A DNA stretch of 37,965 nt from Clostridia bacterium (GCA_003566675.1 PXCI01000334.1:1-37965), one strand, 5' to 3'. Shown: positions 11,653-36,433, counted from the stretch's first letter. Notes: generated by a model from the sequence alone, not told the origin. Program-made: numbers and translations.

Positions 11653-13296
11653 CTACGAAGCATCGTCCAGGGCGCGTTCGACTGCCTGTCGGAACATGTT
11701 GGAGGTCGATGTCGCGTCCGCGATGGCGTCGACATCGGCAGATTGGGCGTCGACTACTGCTCCCGGCAGTTCTTCATATGCCTGGAGCCACGGCTCGAAG
11801 TCGTAGTTGTCAGGGGTCTTGGCTTCCCCGTCGGCCTGGTATTCTTCAAAACTTACTGCCACGATTCGGCCCAAGAGCACGGTGACTTCGGCTTCCACGT
11901 AACCTCCGCGTTCGGACTCATCTGAACGAGCTTCATATGTGCCGTCCTTGTAAGGTCCGTGCTCGAAGGCGGGCTCTTCGCCGAGGGCGCGGGCCATCGC
12001 CAACAGGAACATGTTAGAGGTCGATGTGGCGCCTGCGATGGCGTCGACATCGGCAGATTGGGCGTCGACTACTGCCCCCGGTAGTTCTTCGGCTGCCTGG
12101 AGCCACGGCTCGAAGTCGTAGTTCTCGGGAGTCTTCTGGCTGCCGTCGCCCCGGAATTCCATCATCTGCACATCGGTGATGGTCCCGCCTTCGACTACGA
12201 CCTCCACCGAAAGATAGCCACGGGGGCCAGGGTCGGAGAAACCCTCATGAACGCCATCGGTAAAGTGACCGGCAAGCTCCTCTTCTTCGCCGAGGGCGCG
12301 ACGGACTGCCTGTCGGAACATGTTAGAGGTTGATGTGGCATCCGCGATGGCGTCGACATCGGCAGATTGGGCGTCGACTACTGCCCCCGGCAGTTCTTCA
12401 TATGCCTGGAGCCACGGCTCGAAGTCGTAGTTGTCAGGGGTCTTGGCTTCCCCGTCGGGCTGGTACTCCTCAAAGCTCACTGCCACGATTCGGCCCAAGA
12501 GCACGGTAACTTCGGCTTCCACGTAACCTCCGCGTCCGGACAAGTCTGAACGAGCTACATGAATCCCGTCTTCATACGGACCGAACTCCACGGCGGGCTC
12601 TTCGCCGAGGGCGCGGGCCATTGCCTGTCGGAACTGGTTAGAGGTCGATGTGGCGTCCGCGACGGTGTCAACATTTGCAGATTGGGCCTCGAGAGCCGCC
12701 TGGGGTAGATCTTCGGCTGCCTGGAGCCACGGCTCGTAGTCGTAGTTATCAGGGGTCTTTTCACTGCCGTCGCCGCGAAATTCGCTCATCTGCACGTTGG
12801 TGATGGTACCCCGTTGGACCACGACATTCACCGCAAGGTAGCCGCGGGGGCCAGGATCAGAGAAGCCCTCATGAACGCCGTCGGTAAAGGGGCCGACGAG
12901 ATCCTCTTCTTCGCCGAGCGCCCGGCGGACTGCCTGTGAGAAGAGTGCACTGGAGCTCGTTGCTCCCGCGACTGCATCAACATCGGCAGATTGGGCCTCG
13001 ATCATCGCCTGGGGTATCTGCTCGACGGCCTCCGCCCATGGCTCGTAGTCGTAGTTGTCCGGTGTCTTCTCACTGCCATCACCTCGGAATTCCTTCAACT
13101 CGATAGCGGTGATCTCGCCGCCCGAGATCACTACCTGGGACCACGCATAGCCTCGCGGACTGGCGTCGGATGCGCCTTCATAGGTTCCGTCGACGAGATC
13201 CTGCGCGTCCGGTTCGGCTTCTCCTGTTGCACATCCTGCGATAATAACTGCGCTTAATAGAAGAATGAGGATCACATTGGGGAGTTTCTGCTGCAT
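11653..13296 (-). CDS. Lipoprotein with five tandem FMN-binding-like domains
   Basis: Lipobox LSAVIIAGC; five repeats ending DAVAGATSSS, DTVADATSTS, DAIADATSTS, DAIAGATSTS, DAIADATSTS. Confidence 0.88.
   Translation of the reverse strand: MQQKLPNVILILLLSAVIIAGCATGEAEPDAQDLVDGTYEGASDASPRGYAWSQVVISGGEITAIELKEFRGDGSEKTPDNYDYEPWAEAVEQIPQAMIEAQSADVDAVAGATSSSALFSQAVRRALGEEEDLVGPFTDGVHEGFSDPGPRGYLAVNVVVQRGTITNVQMSEFRGDGSEKTPDNYDYEPWLQAAEDLPQAALEAQSANVDTVADATSTSNQFRQAMARALGEEPAVEFGPYEDGIHVARSDLSGRGGYVEAEVTVLLGRIVAVSFEEYQPDGEAKTPDNYDFEPWLQAYEELPGAVVDAQSADVDAIADATSTSNMFRQAVRRALGEEEELAGHFTDGVHEGFSDPGPRGYLSVEVVVEGGTITDVQMMEFRGDGSQKTPENYDFEPWLQAAEELPGAVVDAQSADVDAIAGATSTSNMFLLAMARALGEEPAFEHGPYKDGTYEARSDESERGGYVEAEVTVLLGRIVAVSFEEYQADGEAKTPDNYDFEPWLQAYEELPGAVVDAQSADVDAIADATSTSNMFRQAVERALDDAS
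11670..12930. repeat. Tandem ~624-bp near-identical direct repeat inside the FMN-binding lipoprotein gene
   Basis: ACTGCCTGTCGGAACATGTT... recurs at 11681 and 12305 (offset 624 bp, 208 codons), with long stretches of identity such as GGCGTCGACATCGGCAGATTGGGCGTCGACTACTGC. Confidence 0.85.
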
Positions 13297-13596
13297 GGGC
13301 TATCTTCCTCTCGTGTCTGCTGATTTTCGGATTCCACAGTTGCACTCTGTGAATCTGTTAACTATTATATAAGTGCACTCTAAATGCTTGCAAGGTATCC
13401 GCTAACACCCGTATCCAGATCAATGGTGTGACGGATATGTACATTGGGACATTAGCGGGGGGCTATTGAGCGGTTTGGTAAATTGTAGTATCATAAGAAA
13501 CAGATAACGTGAAATGGATAACGTGTGTCTTGCGGACGTGTTTGTAGTTGATTATAAGTGCCCATATATTTGGGCTGAAATACGGTTAGGGGTGAG

Positions 13597-15315
13597 ATGA
13601 TGAGAAAACTCGACGTTCTCCGAACCGGTGGTTTTTTGATGATTTTGTGCACCGTGGCAGCTTTTTCGCTGGCCGTGACTGCAGTAGCGACCGAGCCGGT
13701 GATTGAGCAGAACCGGGTGCGAGAACTGCAGCAGGCCCTCTCCAAGGCTTTGCCCGGGGGCGAAAGCTTTGAGCCCGTGCAGGAGTGGGACGGCGGTGCG
13801 ATTTACGCGGGCTTCCGGGAAGACGAGCTAGTGGGTCATGTGGTCTTGACCTTTCGCCCTGGCTACTCGGCGGATATCTCCGTACTAGTGGGCGTGGATA
13901 TCTCTGGCACCGTGGTTGCACCGATTCAGGTTCTTAGCCAGAGAGAGACCCCAGGCTTGGGGTCCAACGTTACGCAGGACTGGTTTCGAGAGCAATTCGA
14001 GGGGAAGACCTACGATGATGATCTCGTGATCGACGGGGATCTGGACGGCCTGGCGGGAGCCACCGTGTCTTCACAGGCTGTAGCCGGTGCTGTGGGTGAC
14101 GCCCTGGGTCGCTGGGCGGGCGCAATAGCCGGCGTTGTAACGGGCCTGGAGATCCACGAGATTCCCGATGGTATTTACCAGGGCGACGGCCGAGGCTTCG
14201 GCGGTAACATCATCGTCGAGGTTGAAGTGCGAGATGGTAGCCTGATCAGTATCCGTGTTGTGGAGCACGCAGAGACCCCGTCAATCGCGGGGCCGGCTCT
14301 GGAGGCCATTCCTTTTACCATGATCGACAAGCAGACGATCCAGGTGGATGCTTACTCCGGTGCCACGGCTACCACCAAGGGAATCATTGAAGCTGTTGAG
14401 AACGCCTTCAGCAGGCTGGTTGCCGATGATCCGTCCGTTGATCTGACGCAGATACCCGACGGTACCTACTGGGGTCAGGCTATGGGCTACGATGGTGTCC
14501 TCGAGGTGGAGGTGGAGGTCAAGGGTGGACAGCTAATTCGCGTAGAGATCGTGGACAGTTACGAGGTGCATGAATACATTGCCGACATTCTGGCGCTGAT
14601 CCCCAATCAGATGCTCGAGGAACAAAAGATCGAGGTCGATGCCTACTCTGGCGCTACGGAGACGACCATGGCTATTGTCGAAGCTGTGAAGGCTTCGCTG
14701 GAAGGTGCCGATGAGCCCGAAGAAATAGACCTCAGCTCTGTTCCCGATGGCATCTACCGGGGCCAGGCAGAGGGTCACCGAGGCAAATTGACGGTCGAGG
14801 TCGATTTCTATGGTGGTGAGCTCATCAGGATCCGGGTCTTGGACCATGAGGAGACTCCGGAGCTGGCTGATCCTGCCATTGTTGCTGTGACAGAGGAGAT
14901 TCTTGTTCGTCAAAAAGTAGAAGTGGACGCCCACTCCGGGGCCACTGTGACCAGCGAGGCCATTATGAAGGCCATTGAGGATGCCGCCCGCGGAGCCCTG
15001 GCCGGAAGCGCTGACGAGGGAGAGTTCGATGACCTTACTGTGATTCCTGATGGCTCCTACCAGGGATCGGCGGAGGGATTCAGGGGAGAAGTGGTCGTCG
15101 AGGTCGAGTTCGCTTCAGGACGGCTGATCCGCGTTGAGATCATGTCGCATGAAGAGACTCCCGAGTTGGCAGAGCCCGCCATCGAAGCCGTTACGGATGA
15201 GATTGTCGATCGGCAGCAGGTCATCGTCGATGCTTACTCCGGTGCTACGGCCACCAGTGTTGCTATTATTGAGGCTGTGAAGGCGGCGGTCCGGGTGGCA
15301 CAGGACGCTGATTGA
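13597..15315 (+). CDS. Exported multi-flavinyl protein: RnfG-like N-terminal domain plus four tandem FMN-binding domains
   Basis: Signal peptide; QRETPGLGSNV and DGLAGATVSS (RnfG-like); DAYSGATATT, DAYSGATETT, DAHSGATVTS, DAYSGATATS. Confidence 0.92.
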   Translation: MMRKLDVLRTGGFLMILCTVAAFSLAVTAVATEPVIEQNRVRELQQALSKALPGGESFEPVQEWDGGAIYAGFREDELVGHVVLTFRPGYSADISVLVGVDISGTVVAPIQVLSQRETPGLGSNVTQDWFREQFEGKTYDDDLVIDGDLDGLAGATVSSQAVAGAVGDALGRWAGAIAGVVTGLEIHEIPDGIYQGDGRGFGGNIIVEVEVRDGSLISIRVVEHAETPSIAGPALEAIPFTMIDKQTIQVDAYSGATATTKGIIEAVENAFSRLVADDPSVDLTQIPDGTYWGQAMGYDGVLEVEVEVKGGQLIRVEIVDSYEVHEYIADILALIPNQMLEEQKIEVDAYSGATETTMAIVEAVKASLEGADEPEEIDLSSVPDGIYRGQAEGHRGKLTVEVDFYGGELIRIRVLDHEETPELADPAIVAVTEEILVRQKVEVDAHSGATVTSEAIMKAIEDAARGALAGSADEGEFDDLTVIPDGSYQGSAEGFRGEVVVEVEFASGRLIRVEIMSHEETPELAEPAIEAVTDEIVDRQQVIVDAYSGATATSVAIIEAVKAAVRVAQDAD

Positions 15316-27913: not shown

Positions 27914-28762
27914 CTACCATCTGCTGAGCAGATGCTGTTTGATGATTCCCCGATGAGGGGAAAAGACCAGTGCCAGGAAGAACATCGCAGCTGACACCGT
28001 CACGATAGTTGCCCCTGCAGGCCAACTCGTGCTGTAGGATAAACCGAGTCCAAGCACCACAGAGGACATGCCAGTCAGCCATGCGTAGACGAGGATGCTC
28101 CTGTAGTTCGCCGAGAGCAGCTCCCCGGTTGCGCCGGGTATCACCAGGAGTGCCGAGGCCATGACCACACCTACCAGTTTCACTGAGAGCACGACGGTTA
28201 GAGCCAGGGCGATCAGGAGTCCATAGTGCAAAAAGCCGATGTGGACCCCCTGTGCCTCCGCGATCCCCTCGTGCATGTTGACCAGCAGGAGCTCCTTGAA
28301 GAATGCGCCCAGAAATCCCCCTGCAATCAACGTGAGCCCCACGATCAGCCACAAGTCTGTCGCGGAGACAGCGAGGATGTTGCCGAACAGGTAGCTGAAC
28401 AGTTCCCCGAAGTACCTTCCCTGGGTGTTGCTGACCATCAGGACGCCAAGGGCCATGGATGTGGAAAAGGCGATTCCGATGGCAACATCGACCTCCAGCC
28501 TCTTCTTACGGGAGACGGATGCGATCAGGATTCCCACGACGACACTGAAGAGGGTTCCTGTGATGATCGGTTCCAGGTTTAGCATAACTCCCAGGGCCAG
28601 TCCACCAAAGGCGGAATGGGCGATCCCCGCCCCTGCGAAGGATAGACCCCGCTGAACAACAAAGAAGGATAGAATCGAGCAAAGAGAGGCGATCAGAAGA
28701 CCGCCGATCAGGGCATGGAGCATGAAAGGATAGTTCAGAACCGCCGCGAACAGGGGGATCAT
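27914..28762 (-). CDS. znuB: Metal (Zn/Mn) ABC transporter permease
   Basis: ABC-3 family: LIGGLLIASLCSILSFFVVQRGLSFAGAGIAHSAFGGLALG; 4-bp overlap with ATPase gene. Confidence 0.93.
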   Translation of the reverse strand: MIPLFAAVLNYPFMLHALIGGLLIASLCSILSFFVVQRGLSFAGAGIAHSAFGGLALGVMLNLEPIITGTLFSVVVGILIASVSRKKRLEVDVAIGIAFSTSMALGVLMVSNTQGRYFGELFSYLFGNILAVSATDLWLIVGLTLIAGGFLGAFFKELLLVNMHEGIAEAQGVHIGFLHYGLLIALALTVVLSVKLVGVVMASALLVIPGATGELLSANYRSILVYAWLTGMSSVVLGLGLSYSTSWPAGATIVTVSAAMFFLALVFSPHRGIIKQHLLSRW

Positions 28763-29562
28763 TTCAGCTCATCTCCTGCGGTCAGGCCGAAGCAGAGCCT
28801 TAGCTGTCGACTCTGCAGCACTGCGTCGGGTTTTCCCTCAATATACAGGTTGCAGTTCATGACAAGCAGTCGATGAACCGTCTGGGCCATCCTGTTGAGT
28901 TCATGGGACACGAGCAGGATGCTGATTCCCGAGTGGGCGCAGATCTCTTTGAGCGTTTCATAAAGTTGCTGCTCCACCGTGAAGTCGAGGGCCTCTGCCG
29001 GCTCATCCAGAAGAAGCAGGCGGTTGTCTCCGGCGAGCACCATGGCGAGAAAGGCGCGCCTCTTTTGACCACCGGACAGGGCACCAACCGGAAGATGCCA
29101 CAGTCTTCGCGCCACCTTCAGGGCTTCCATGGCTCTCCTCGCCTTCCTGTGATCCTCGGCAGCGGGAAGCCTGCAGGGACCGATCAGGCGTGTCCGTCCC
29201 ATCATGACCAGGTCGTACGTGGAGACTGGAAAACTCTCTTTAAGATCCAGCCCCTGGGGCATGTATCCGATGGATCTGGATCTCCTGCCGGGCTGTGTGA
29301 ATTTGCTGGAGATTGTCCCCCGATCCGGCCGGACCAGTCCCGCAATGGCACGGAGCAGGGTGGTCTTTCCGCCGCCATTGGGGCCAACGAGGCCGACGAT
29401 CTCACCCTGCTTCAGGGCAAAGCTGATGTCGCGGAGGACGGGATGCCCGCCCAGGGTTATGGACACCCCGCTAACCGTGAGGACTTCAGATCCATGCAGA
29501 AGCACTGGGTGGCGCTGACCATCACTCCGGCGCTGGTCAGCGCCTTGACTGCGGAGGTTCAT
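28759..29562 (-). CDS. znuC: Metal ABC transporter ATP-binding protein
   Basis: Walker A GPNGGGKTTLLRAIAGL, signature LSGGQKRRAFLA, Walker B LLLLDEP. Confidence 0.94.
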   Translation of the reverse strand: MNLRSQGADQRRSDGQRHPVLLHGSEVLTVSGVSITLGGHPVLRDISFALKQGEIVGLVGPNGGGKTTLLRAIAGLVRPDRGTISSKFTQPGRRSRSIGYMPQGLDLKESFPVSTYDLVMMGRTRLIGPCRLPAAEDHRKARRAMEALKVARRLWHLPVGALSGGQKRRAFLAMVLAGDNRLLLLDEPAEALDFTVEQQLYETLKEICAHSGISILLVSHELNRMAQTVHRLLVMNCNLYIEGKPDAVLQSRQLRLCFGLTAGDELK

Positions 29563-30473
29563 GGTTCAACGGATTCATGAAGAGCGGCTGCGAGTTTTGC
29601 AGCATTGTACCGCATGATCTGGGCATAGGAGTTGCGATCTGCTGAGTCAGGATCACCGAGGGGGTCCAGGTCGAGCAGGATGCCGTCGATCTGTCCCGCC
29701 AGGGCCTCCGCCAGCATGGTTCCGTGGCCCCGAGTGGTGGTGATCACATGAATGCCTTCATGGTTGGCCAGATCAACCAGCTCCGTTGCTTCCCTCGGGC
29801 TGCATTCGTGGCCGGGTGTCGTCTCGAGAACACCCCTCTGTTCGAGGTTGTACCGATGTGCGAAATGGGTCCAGGCAGCATGGTCGCTGATGAAGGATCG
29901 CCCGGTGACATCCTGGAACATGTCCTGCAGTTCGCGGTCGAGATCGGTCAGTTCATCCGTGAAGCGGGCGGCGTTGTTCACGTAGTGCACAGAGCCCTCG
30001 GGATCTACAGCGGAGAAAGCATTGACCAGCAGGGGTACGATGTGGTCACGAACGAGGATGGGATCGAGCCAGACGTGAGGATCCCCCAGGTCCTCTCCCC
30101 CGTCTTCGGCCAGAACCGTGGCGATCTCAAGGCTTGCTGCATCCTCCCTGGCAGTGCTGAATACCTGCTCAGCCCATTCGTCCAGACCGCCTGCAATCCG
30201 GATCAGAAGGTCTGCGCTGACCGCTTCTTGCATCATGGCAGGGCCCACCTCGTGCAGATGGGCGCTTCCTCCGGCAGGAAGCAGGGTGGTCACAGTCACC
30301 CGATCCCCACCTATTTCCTGGGCAATACAGGTGAGGGGGTAAATGGTTGTTGCAACCAACAGGCGCTCATCTTTATCGGGTGCAGCCTGAAAGGCTGAAA
30401 AAATGCCGCATCCTGCAAGTAGCAGTGCAGATAGAGCCATGTACAAAACAAGTGCCGCAGTGTTTCGTTTCAT
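29559..30473 (-). CDS. znuA: Metal ABC transporter substrate-binding lipoprotein
   Basis: Lipobox LLLAGC; TIYPLTCIAQEIGGDRVTVTTLLPAGGSAHLHEVGP; DPHVWLDP; SDHAAWTHFAHRYNL. Confidence 0.93.
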   Translation of the reverse strand: MKRNTAALVLYMALSALLLAGCGIFSAFQAAPDKDERLLVATTIYPLTCIAQEIGGDRVTVTTLLPAGGSAHLHEVGPAMMQEAVSADLLIRIAGGLDEWAEQVFSTAREDAASLEIATVLAEDGGEDLGDPHVWLDPILVRDHIVPLLVNAFSAVDPEGSVHYVNNAARFTDELTDLDRELQDMFQDVTGRSFISDHAAWTHFAHRYNLEQRGVLETTPGHECSPREATELVDLANHEGIHVITTTRGHGTMLAEALAGQIDGILLDLDPLGDPDSADRNSYAQIMRYNAAKLAAALHESVEP

Positions 30474-32376: not shown

Positions 32377-32410
32377 AAAATCAACTCCTTAAGATGTGTG
32401 GGGAAAGTGG

Positions 32411-32507
32411 CGGGAGTATGTGGGAATCGAACCCACCACGGACAGGTTCGGCCCATCCGTCAACGGATTTGAAGTCCGCGGGTGGCACCAGCCATCCAAC
32501 TACTCCC
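32411..32507 (-). tRNA. selC: tRNA-Sec (anticodon TCA), CCA encoded at 32408-32410
   Basis: GGGAGTAG...GGATGGCTGGTGCCACCC...CGGACTTCAAATCCG...long variable arm ACGGA/TCCGT...GTGGGTTCGATTCCCACATACTCCCGCCA. Confidence 0.93.
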
Positions 32508-32620: not shown

Positions 32621-33340
32621 TCATCCATTGATTGACGGCATACATCTGCCGTCAAGGTAGGCAACGACGTCTGACAATGTGCGTACGGACGCTGATAATT
32701 GACCGGTTCCCTGCCGGTCGAACAGAAGTGCATCCATGCCGATACTCTGAGGACCATGCACATCCCACAGCGGATCATCGCCTACGAAGAGACAATCACC
32801 AGGCTGAGCATCAAAGATGTCAAGGGCATGGCGGTACACCACGGGTGCTGGCTTGCGGTATCCAACGTCTCGACAGGAGATCACGTGCTCGAACAATACC
32901 CGCAGTCCACGGTCATCGAGGTCACGAAGCCACTCTTTTCCTGGACACCCCCAGGGTGTATTGGATACCAAGCCGAGCCGGTAGCCTTGTTCGGTCAAGT
33001 CAGTCAGCATCGCGCGCCCACCAGGTATAGCGACGCCGTGCCCTCGGATCACCTGGGTAAAGGCCGTCGCAGCAGCCTGCAGCCGATGAGAATGATCCGT
33101 CTTGAAGATGCGGGCGAGCCTTTCTTCAAGAGGTCGCACGCGGTGATCCGACCGTTCCCGATCTTCCCGTGACACCCGGTCCCAGATGTCTGTATCCGGG
33201 GGCATTGTCTCTTCGTTCTGAAACAAGATCGTGCTAGCTTCGGACAGTGCTTCCCACAGGACCTCCGGGAACTGGTCTCTCCGATAAAAATCCACCAATG
33301 TGCCTCCATAGTCGAACAGCACGACCGAGTATCGCCCCAT
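32621..33340 (-). CDS. HAD superfamily hydrolase
   Basis: VVLFDYGGTLVD, LGLVSNTPWG, VGYRKPAPVVYRHAL, CLFVGDDPLWDVHGPQSIGMDALLFDR. Confidence 0.9.
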   Translation of the reverse strand: MGRYSVVLFDYGGTLVDFYRRDQFPEVLWEALSEASTILFQNEETMPPDTDIWDRVSREDRERSDHRVRPLEERLARIFKTDHSHRLQAAATAFTQVIRGHGVAIPGGRAMLTDLTEQGYRLGLVSNTPWGCPGKEWLRDLDDRGLRVLFEHVISCRDVGYRKPAPVVYRHALDIFDAQPGDCLFVGDDPLWDVHGPQSIGMDALLFDRQGTGQLSASVRTLSDVVAYLDGRCMPSING

Positions 33341-33604
33341 GATGGCTCTCCCCTTTCTCTTGTAGAAAATAACAGACAAGCTGACCTCTCGGAACCGAGG
33401 CCCAAGTTCCTTGTTGATTCTCCTCAAGTACCCACAACCGCTTCACTCCTATCTCATTGGTCTGCACAAATGTTGCTCCTTTGTGCCGTGATGGCAGATC
33501 CCGGAGGAGCGGATGAGATGGCCCTGGATAAATGCTTCACACGGCGTCGACCCGCGACAGGTACTGGCATGACATGGAGGATGACCATGGCGCACGCAAA
33601 ATTC

Positions 33605-36433
33605 TCAGGGCTCCCGGGGGAGAAATACGTGGGGGCGGATGACTCCCGCCCGGATCTGAGTAATCCCCTCCAGGACGGCCGGCCCACCCCTATGTTCTTC
33701 GAACACCGTGGCTGTTCTCTCCGGAAGGGTCCCGAGATGACCGAAACCCTTCAGCAGGCAGATACTCAGGGGCGGTCGCCGTTCACCGGGGCCTGCATCG
33801 CAGGATGGGTCCTCAAAATATTCGTCCAAGATCCTCCCGGTGGCGCGCGGTGCCACAATGCCCTTCACTGCCATCTCCTGTGCCTGCTCCAGCAGGGCCC
33901 AGGTCAAGGTACGATTCAGGACCACGATTGCATCGGAGTGCTGCTCCGAGATAACCCCGTCTGATCCATTGCGGATCTCGTCCAAGATCTGCAGCGTTCC
34001 AGCCACCCGACCCCCTACGCCATAGGCCCCATTGATTTTCCAACCGCGTCCTGTCACAGCAATCTCCCGTTCGCTGATCCGGGCAATTTTGCCGTAGGTT
34101 TCGGCCCGCAGGCGTTTCCGGGGACCTTGCCGTGAGATTATCACGGTGCCGTCTTCGATCGATGTGATGGTTCCTGACAGAGGCGCCGTGGCCTTTTTCG
34201 CAAAGAGCCCAAGTAGGCCTCCGGGGTGCGGCGAGGCCAGGATCGTCCCTTCGAGCACCCGATCCCCAATCCTGACCCGCAAGTATTGCTCAGCCTGATC
34301 CTTCGAGACGCCCAAATCCCCGGCTACATTGATGGCTGCCTCCCGTTCGTCCAGTTGCTCCTCAATCACAACTCGCCCGGAATCCGAAGAGATGTTGGTG
34401 ATCTGGCCTCTCACCGGGGCCTTGTACTCATATATGGTTGCGCCAACCCGGGCAGAGGCGAGGACTTCTCCCTTTGCCACCCGGTCGCCCACTCTTTTGA
34501 GCATGACTGCGGGCAATGTTTCGGGTTCAACCCTCAATGTTGGGCAGGGTGACAGGTACCAGGGAAAGCTGACATGATCTCGGCTCATCGCCAGTACCGT
34601 TGAGGGTCGAACCTCCTGTCCCTCCTTCACCGAAACCGACGCATCTTCGGGTAGGGGTATGCGGTACGTGACCTCCGTATTCACAGGGGGTGAGGCGTTG
34701 TCAAAGGAGCTGAAAGATACCGGTGCCGACATGGGCTCTATCTTCTCCCTCAGATCGACGATCAGGTTGAACCCCGTGTTTTCATCGAGTTGCGGCAGCT
34801 GCAAAACGGCGGGCCTGCTCACAGAGATCCCAGAGATTCCTGTGATTTGCTCCGCCTCATCGGGGGCTTCGAAGTAGATGTCGCCCGGTGCATACTGACT
34901 CACCCTGCCGTCGCTGAAGCGGATCTTCAGGTCCTGGGGCTTTCCGGGGCGAATCAGGACGCACAATCTGCGAAGCGCGAGCTGCTCAAACAGATCTCGG
35001 ACCTCGGCGGGGGGCAACACCTGAAGCAGAAGGCCGAGGTGAGGCGTGATGAACATCGGATCGACGGCGAGGATGGTCACGCCGGTGGGCCCCAGGCCGT
35101 CAATCAGGGTCAGTGCCAGGTCCCGGGCATCTCCACCGTGGGCAAAGTAGCCGCCCGAACCAACCAGCAGATCGGTATCCGTGACATCGAGGGTGCTCTG
35201 GATCCTTCCGCGGATATGGTCCTCCATCCCGGGGAGAATACCCACCTTCTTGATTGCGGTGGGCGCGTCCCTGAGGTGGTCCTGCAGGGCCAGGGCCAGA
35301 ACTTCGCGGGCAACGGCTCTCTCAACGAGGCGTTCTGCTTCGGTTTGGGGGATGTGGGTTGGGTGGCACATCTTGTTGTTGATGTAGTCCCGGACCTTTT
35401 CCTTGTCGAATGCACGGCGGTCCAGCCAGCGCATTACCCGCTCACTGCCTGCGCGAATCAGAGCATTACGGATGCTGTAGCTCATGCCGAGGTTGGCGCT
35501 CACGCTACGGTGGAGGTGCCCTTCCGTGACGGTGAAAATGTCTGTGGTGGCTCCTCCCATGTCAGCAAGCAGGATGTTAAGACCGGTGGCCCCGGCGTAG
35601 TCGGTCACCATCTGGCCCACCGCCCTGGGCGTCGGGAGAATGTTGCCACTGGTCCTTTCCTTCAGGCCCCGATATCCCGGTGCTCGCTCCATAACGTGTT
35701 CCATGAAGCTGCTTTCAATGGCAGCGGACAGGGGGGCGACATTTTCGCGGTCCGGCCTGGGCCGAACGTTCGCGACCGCTTCCACCAGGGCATCATCCCT
35801 GAGCGTCTCCTTCACAAGTGCCTGTGCCCCGGTGTTTCCGGCGAAGATGACGGGACAGAGGTGGTCTTCATCTGATCGACGCATCGCAAGGGCTCGCCTG
35901 ATGATCTCGGCCATGTTCACCAGGGGCTGTACGGATTGGGCATCAAAGCCGCCAGAGAAAACGACGAGGTCCGGGTGAAGCTGCCGGATTCGGTCGATCC
36001 GCTCCATGGGTGACCGTCCGTCATTGGAAGCGATGCCATCCAGAATAATGCCTCCGGCACCGAGGGCAGCCCGGTTAGCGCTTTCTGCGCTCAGGTGCCT
36101 TACAAGGCCGACCACCACCACCTGCAGGCCGCCGCCGGCGCTGGAGGTCGCCAGCCAGGTGATCTGGTCTTGGCTTTCGAGTTCGCGAATCACCCCATTG
36201 GTCTTGGCTAGCTGCGTAAACGCCTCGTCCACGCCCGCCATCACGTCCTCTGTTGGCCGTTCAACCGTCGTAGAAGAATGGCTACGCCCCATCAGGCAGT
36301 AGGTGTTGCCCTGTTTTTGCAGGTAGAACATTTTGGTGGTTGTGCTGCCGACATCGAGCAGTATGATGTGTTCCACTGGCTGACCCTCCTGGGATCGATT
36401 GGCCTTGCACTGGTTAGTTAGCGGAACGATCAT
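33605..36433 (-). CDS. Glutamate mutase L (GlmL/MutL)-like ASKHA-fold protein with long C-terminal barrel-sandwich-like extension
   Basis: ILLDVGSTTTKMFYL, WLATSSAGGGLQVVVVGLV, ILLADMGGATTDIFTV, SGGFDAQ; C-terminal YKAPVRGQITNISSDSGRVVI and TAPLSGTITSIEDGTVII repeats. Confidence 0.85.
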   Translation of the reverse strand: MIVPLTNQCKANRSQEGQPVEHIILLDVGSTTTKMFYLQKQGNTYCLMGRSHSSTTVERPTEDVMAGVDEAFTQLAKTNGVIRELESQDQITWLATSSAGGGLQVVVVGLVRHLSAESANRAALGAGGIILDGIASNDGRSPMERIDRIRQLHPDLVVFSGGFDAQSVQPLVNMAEIIRRALAMRRSDEDHLCPVIFAGNTGAQALVKETLRDDALVEAVANVRPRPDRENVAPLSAAIESSFMEHVMERAPGYRGLKERTSGNILPTPRAVGQMVTDYAGATGLNILLADMGGATTDIFTVTEGHLHRSVSANLGMSYSIRNALIRAGSERVMRWLDRRAFDKEKVRDYINNKMCHPTHIPQTEAERLVERAVAREVLALALQDHLRDAPTAIKKVGILPGMEDHIRGRIQSTLDVTDTDLLVGSGGYFAHGGDARDLALTLIDGLGPTGVTILAVDPMFITPHLGLLLQVLPPAEVRDLFEQLALRRLCVLIRPGKPQDLKIRFSDGRVSQYAPGDIYFEAPDEAEQITGISGISVSRPAVLQLPQLDENTGFNLIVDLREKIEPMSAPVSFSSFDNASPPVNTEVTYRIPLPEDASVSVKEGQEVRPSTVLAMSRDHVSFPWYLSPCPTLRVEPETLPAVMLKRVGDRVAKGEVLASARVGATIYEYKAPVRGQITNISSDSGRVVIEEQLDEREAAINVAGDLGVSKDQAEQYLRVRIGDRVLEGTILASPHPGGLLGLFAKKATAPLSGTITSIEDGTVIISRQGPRKRLRAETYGKIARISEREIAVTGRGWKINGAYGVGGRVAGTLQILDEIRNGSDGVISEQHSDAIVVLNRTLTWALLEQAQEMAVKGIVAPRATGRILDEYFEDPSCDAGPGERRPPLSICLLKGFGHLGTLPERTATVFEEHRGGPAVLEGITQIRAGVIRPHVFLPREP

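Follow-up and report, generated by a model that had tools for sequence, protein, structure and literature searches.

Which enzyme supplies electrons to a divergently encoded pair of exported proteins, each with five tandem FMN-binding domains, and where these electrons go, are the questions raised by a locus in the draft genome of a Clostridia bacterium (GCA_003566675.1, contig PXCI01000334.1). The whole stretch of DNA analysed, hereafter the window, spans 37,965 nucleotides and belongs to a genome (G000) of 365 contigs with 90.6% completeness and 6.3% contamination. The close relatives are "Clostridia bacterium" MAGs (CSSed, B1Sed, and T1Sed) from datasets of Kulunda Steppe soda-lake sediments (PMC6704655, PMC6146748).

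Architecture of the divergent gene pair

The open reading frames were found where the original prediction had placed them, and the shared gap of about 300 bp measured exactly 300 bp (Table 1). Alignment of this intergenic region revealed no convincing conserved operator. Orthologues of both genes with 62–66% protein identity occur in three genomes of one genus, with a divergence of about 0.60 at third codon positions and of 0.18–0.26 at first and second positions; this concentration of differences at third positions shows that purifying selection acts on both genes. The two proteins are strongly acidic (pI 4.2 and 4.1), as is expected of exported proteins in haloalkaliphiles.

Table 1. Features of the divergent gene pair, in coordinates of the window
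Feature	Position	Strand	Remarks
Lipoprotein with five tandem FMN_bind1-type domains	11653..13296	-	547 aa; lipobox IAGC, Cys22
Lipoprotein repeat 5	11656..11946	-	DAIADATSTS (Gly to Asp)
Lipoprotein repeat 4	11947..12258	-	DAIAGATSTS (canonical)
Lipoprotein repeat 3	12259..12570	-	DAIADATSTS (Gly to Asp)
Lipoprotein repeat 2	12571..12882	-	DTVADATSTS (Gly to Asp)
Lipoprotein repeat 1	12883..13191	-	DAVAGATSSS (canonical)
Shared divergent intergenic region	13297..13596	.	300 bp
Promoter-like site	13393-13364	-	weak consensus match only
Promoter-like site	13466-13494	+	weak consensus match only
RnfG paralogue, N-terminal membrane helix and five FMN_bind domains	13597..15315	+	572 aa
RnfG domain	13597..14106	+	RETPGLG and DGLAGATVSS; residues 2-170 align with TIGR01947 and PDB 7zc6 chain G
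Tail FMN_bind domain 1	14164..14454	+	DAYSGATATT
Tail FMN_bind domain 2	14455..14742	+	DAYSGATETT
Tail FMN_bind domain 3	14743..15045	+	DAHSGATVTS; nearest solved domain CbFMN4-D1, PDB 8p2b
Tail FMN_bind domain 4	15046..15312	+	DAYSGATATS

The Pfam profile PF04205 (FMN_bind) matched five separate stretches in each protein, with whole-protein E values of 2.7e-41 (minus strand) and 2.9e-69 (plus strand). Membership was assigned domain by domain as a score above the curated Pfam cut-off, and in the genome profile search all ten predicted repeats individually exceeded it (>22 bits). With five domains each and either a lipobox or an N-terminal helix, both proteins belong to the multi-flavinylated class, defined by more than one FMN_bind domain and export (PMC8238504).

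By profile and motif, the plus-strand protein is a membrane-anchored RnfG paralogue with a tail of four FMN_bind domains. It scored 163 bits against the NCBIfam rnfG family TIGR01947 (cut-off 102), and the operon-encoded RnfG of the same genome scored 108. When a profile was built from the protein together with its orthologues, residues 2-176 aligned with the solved RnfG chains 7zc6_G and 9eri_G, the former being the best PDB match. The predicted order of an RnfG-like head carrying RETPGLG and DGLAGATVSS and four further domains was thus recovered, and the motif Dxx[S/T/A]GA[T/S] is canonical in all five domains. The predicted signal peptide had to be revised, since the N-terminus looks like the uncleaved single membrane helix usual for RnfG and is not clearly a cleaved signal peptide. 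An AlphaFold model placed a long helix at residues 2-51 with low confidence (pLDDT 55), too poor for the spacing of the flavins to be read.

The minus-strand protein is a lipoprotein, as predicted, with the lipobox Cys22 invariant in 7/7 homologues. The model of its repeats shows the same fold five times and is of good confidence (pLDDT 85), and the nearest solved domains are CPE2226, SaFMN3, and CbFMN4. Repeats 3 and 5 share 89% protein and 90% DNA identity, and repeats 2 and 4 share 77% and 81%; these likenesses suggest that a three-repeat ancestor was probably expanded via duplication of a two-domain unit. Relatives encode two, three, or five repeats, with three in G001, G002, and G005.

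Other features of the window include a 942-aa MutL-type (PF13941) protein (33605-36433, minus strand) in which residues 642-690 weakly resemble RnfC_N/NqrA_N. ARAGORN called a tRNA-SeC (32408-32507, minus strand) and an odd 102-nt tRNA-Cys(aca) (33300-33401, minus strand), which looks spurious.

Conserved pairing and the genomic Rnf complex

The window contains neither rnf genes nor ApbE, in agreement with the original prediction, and the gene of the plus-strand protein lies outside any rnf operon. Genome-wide searches located a complete rnfCDGEAB operon including its own rnfG on contig C61, and the apbE gene sought outside the window was present as a single copy on contig C173 (E 3.8e-77), near genes for a NusG_II protein, a Gx-type transporter, and a DUF1670 protein. 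The partners missing from the window therefore exist elsewhere in the genome, and RnfD together with ApbE is present in all eight genomes of the window's family (f1). The ApbE contig also encodes a small lipoprotein with a single FMN_bind domain (L015:18447-18890, minus strand), near broken DUF1670 fragments (C173:24112-24490).

The divergent arrangement recurs in four f1 genomes, namely that of the window, G001, G005, and G007. In G002, genes for Gx, the poly-FMN RnfG, DUF1670, the lipoprotein, NusG_II, and ApbE follow one another within about 7 kb, an arrangement that links the pair physically with the gene of the flavin transferase. All 13 genomes with a poly-FMN RnfG also encode a lipoprotein-like protein (two of them weakly) versus 4/48 genomes without it, a contrast inflated by shared ancestry in a sample of draft MAGs from few families. 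The conserved divergence, the clustering with ApbE in one relative, and this co-occurrence in relatives all lend support to the putative paired, surface-anchored flavin relay.

A DUF1670 protein of one subfamily adjoins the poly-FMN RnfG in G001, G002, G004, G005, and G006, and a member of the same subfamily adjoins ApbE in the window's genome. Subfamily members were located at L015:5051-6784 (+), L048:6842-8362 (-), L051:7149-8726 (-), L054:2490-4076 (-), L056:1260-2879 (+), and L049:4898-6127 (-). No link to FMN_bind was seen for other DUF1670 copies in the class; the association is therefore limited to the subfamily of this neighbourhood, which may act as a regulator. The literature search returned no paper on DUF1670, and the structure search no solved relative.

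A profile of the plus-strand protein run over 84,980 genomes in a pattern-limited search retrieved 79 loci, 72 of them outside the window's family and almost all of these short RnfGs in rnf operons. Four other families of the same class depart from this organization. In f5 (G011, G036, G052), f9 (G015), f20 (G045), and f19 (G025), RnfD and RnfE are separated by 32-81 bp, versus 570-1097 bp where rnfG is present; no RnfG-HMM hit was obtained in this gap, and the operon order C-D-E-A-B leaves no room for rnfG. The only RnfG-type FMN_bind protein found in these genomes is of the poly-FMN kind, encoded on a different contig and, in f5, f9, and f20, adjoining a two-component system. These sole RnfGs carry one to three extra flavin domains, and the protein of the window's family carries four. 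The operons of G026 and G044 also lack rnfG, but a single-domain RnfG is encoded elsewhere in these genomes. As a poly-FMN RnfG is the sole RnfG found in the genomes of f5, f9, f19, and f20, the simplest reading is that such a protein can fill the place of subunit G in Rnf. The electron donor, which the original prediction left unknown, can be narrowed, given an RnfG-family subunit in a genome with a full Rnf complex.

Altogether, operons without rnfG were recorded in eight genomes of five families (G011, G036, G052, G015, G045, G025, G044, and G026; loci L236-L240, L243, L249, and L253), and several of the separately encoded RnfGs in such genomes have a LuxR-type response regulator and a histidine kinase of the PAS/GAF type as neighbours. 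Some operon RnfGs are about 330-363 aa long, with room for two RnfG units (L053:4159-5184 on the minus strand, L182, L191, and L206); in that of L053, two domains and two motifs were seen.

In the RnfG tree, the poly-FMN RnfGs of f1 form one clade (99/90) apart from the operon RnfGs of the same family (99/93). An origin of the former from the latter is thus not favoured, and the topology test did not reject it (p-AU 0.186). A single clade of all extra-operonic RnfGs was likewise not rejected (p-AU 0.52). Because the tree gives no resolution of the deep branches, the f1 poly-FMN RnfG may, but need not, be an orthologue of the sole RnfG seen in other families.

RnfC and RnfD also occur as pairs without RnfG, E, A, or B (L247:1472-7732, L246, L241, L248, L251, L250, and, in the window's own genome, L244:7466-9814). 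Neighbours of the pair in several genomes are a molybdopterin oxidoreductase, which has a TAT signal in G005, and a 4Fe-4S subunit resembling ferredoxin. Such a pair may represent a membrane module that derives from Rnf and serves an exported molybdoenzyme. Contig C131 of the window's genome encodes a 1127-aa ORF (L245:4159-7542, plus strand) in which Nqo3-type ferredoxin and molybdopterin oxidoreductase domains are fused to an RnfD-like membrane domain (PF03116).

A candidate electron path and its alternatives

The window's family keeps both RnfGs, which suggests that the second one is probably an alternative subunit diverting electrons outward to a PplA-like lipoprotein. The main reading, given a probability of roughly 0.55 from sequence evidence, is that the plus-strand protein acts as an alternative G subunit of Rnf, whose ApbE-flavinylated tail sends electrons outward via the lipoprotein to an extracellular acceptor. 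The N-terminal helix would anchor the protein in the membrane, and the RnfG domain would either occupy the position that the ordinary RnfG has at the core of Rnf or accept electrons from that subunit. Electrons from ferredoxin would pass through Rnf to the FMN of the RnfG head; with the ordinary RnfG they would return to NAD+, and with the poly-FMN form they would instead travel outward along four tail FMNs, attached covalently by ApbE. The lipid-anchored lipoprotein, with two canonical and three altered FMN sites, may then carry them further through the envelope, as PplA does in Listeria. Beyond the RnfG head these steps are inferred, and candidates for the final acceptor are external Fe(III), humics, sulfur, or a distant enzyme.

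No acceptor enzyme and no neighbouring reductase was found near the pair. PF00890 proteins of the same genome were considered as FMN-linked acceptors and rejected: neither of the two strong hits contains an FMN_bind domain or, on visual inspection, a signal peptide, and the PF00890 hits include no exported, FMN-linked protein resembling fumarate reductase.

Several other explanations of the pair were weighed. Because the f1 genomes retain an ordinary operon RnfG, the poly-FMN RnfG need not work with Rnf, and it might partner a different membrane module that has no RnfG of its own, such as the RnfC-RnfD pair beside molybdopterin oxidoreductases. The window's genome does hold a second RnfC/RnfD pair on contig C243, and in G004 and G005 such a pair has a molybdopterin enzyme or a large ORF alongside. 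However, among the drafts with a poly-FMN RnfG, G001, G002, G006, and G007 encode a single RnfD and the f5 and f9 genomes have only the ordinary rnf operon, leaving this partnership rather improbable. It is somewhat easier to imagine, although still unlikely, that the pair serves as an electron sink or buffer, consuming O2 or storing electrons at the surface of an anaerobe, and is no respiratory outlet. Reduced SaFMN3, with three FMNs, reacts with O2 and shows one single potential of -184 mV (PMC10339131), and the freely varying repeat count of the lipoprotein (two, three, or five) would suit such a role; but the RnfG head and the relatives with the poly-FMN form as sole RnfG point to electron flow from Rnf, and no oxidase or peroxidase gene was seen alongside the pair in the window. 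Reduction of iron for uptake, not for respiration, would agree with the frequent tie of flavinylation clusters to iron assimilation (PMC8238504). This is the least probable alternative, as no iron transporter adjoins the pair in the window or in relatives, and the ABC transporter of the window (27914-30473), 12 kb from the pair, belongs to the zinc-uptake type.

A last explanation concerns the lipoprotein, in which the ApbE-substrate motif is AGAT in two of the five repeats and ADAT in the remaining three. Gly occupies the exchanged position in 115/123 distinct FMN_bind motifs of the fetched loci, so that the altered repeats might have lost their FMN and the protein might be decaying or purely structural. 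The non-Gly exceptions (D, Q, E, K, or N), however, belong mostly to lipoproteins of this same type, other members of which have Q, E, or K, and in RnfD, likewise flavinylated by ApbE, the corresponding position is more often S, T, A, or Q than G. Together with the purifying selection on the gene and the good confidence of all five modelled repeats, this makes a loss of FMN improbable. Exchange of Gly to Ala cuts flavinylation of a model protein to about half (PMC12052999); in view of this and of RnfD, the ADAT sites may still accept FMN, if perhaps at lower occupancy. Of the predicted maximum of five FMNs per protein, the figure for the plus-strand protein stands, and that for the lipoprotein is uncertain at three sites, which gives the pair a predicted capacity of seven canonical sites and ten at most.

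Returning to the alternative G subunit, the findings can be assembled into a wider, tentative picture that is rather less secure than the main reading. Rnf would possess interchangeable G subunits, the ordinary RnfG serving the ferredoxin-NAD+ loop and the poly-flavin RnfG making the Na+/H+-pumping complex a surface electron outlet, with the poly-flavin lipoprotein as the next carrier, the DUF1670 protein as a possible regulator, and sister families relying on the poly-flavin form alone. For most of the numerous multi-flavinylated proteins no electron donor or acceptor has been established, and the families with rnf operons lacking rnfG provide a natural test in which the proposed link from Rnf to an outward flavin wire can be directly examined. 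These families also suggest that soda-lake anaerobes may couple ferredoxin oxidation to external acceptors via flavins.

Comparison with known flavin carriers

Like RnfG and NqrC (TIGR01947; 7zc6_G, 9eri_G), the plus-strand protein has an N-terminal helix, ETPGLG and DxxAGATxS motifs, and a score above the family cut-off; unlike them, it carries four extra FMN_bind domains and is encoded outside the operon. The lipoprotein resembles PplA of Listeria (NF041941), a component of extracellular electron transfer and its best NCBIfam match, in its lipid anchor and tandem FMN_bind domains. Its score of 61.5 bits against a cut-off of 325 nevertheless places it outside the PplA family, its type has two to five repeats, and the Ndh2/EetA/EetB context of PplA was not recognised in the window. 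The domain fold is common to SaFMN3 and CbFMN4 (PMC10339131; 8p2a, 8p2b) and CPE2226 (3o6u). Multi-FMN proteins have been purified, and attachment of several FMNs by ApbE was demonstrated for SaFMN3 and CbFMN4 (PMC10339131); in contrast to the plus-strand protein, none of the three has an RnfG head.

The survey by Meheust et al. (2021; PMC8238504) already described multi-flavinylated proteins with up to 13 sites and, within RNF clusters, RnfGs of this kind. These RnfGs share with the plus-strand protein the fusion of an RnfG domain to more FMN_bind domains and the proposal of a second, outward electron path from Rnf. The plus-strand gene differs in lying outside the rnf operon, beside a poly-FMN lipoprotein and, in relatives, near DUF1670, and in coexisting with an ordinary operon RnfG. 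Since that survey counted RNF only with RnfB in the same cluster, extra-operonic cases of this kind would have escaped linkage to Rnf. Multi-flavinylated RnfGs are thus already known, and what is new here is the variant outside the rnf operon that is paired with a poly-FMN lipoprotein.
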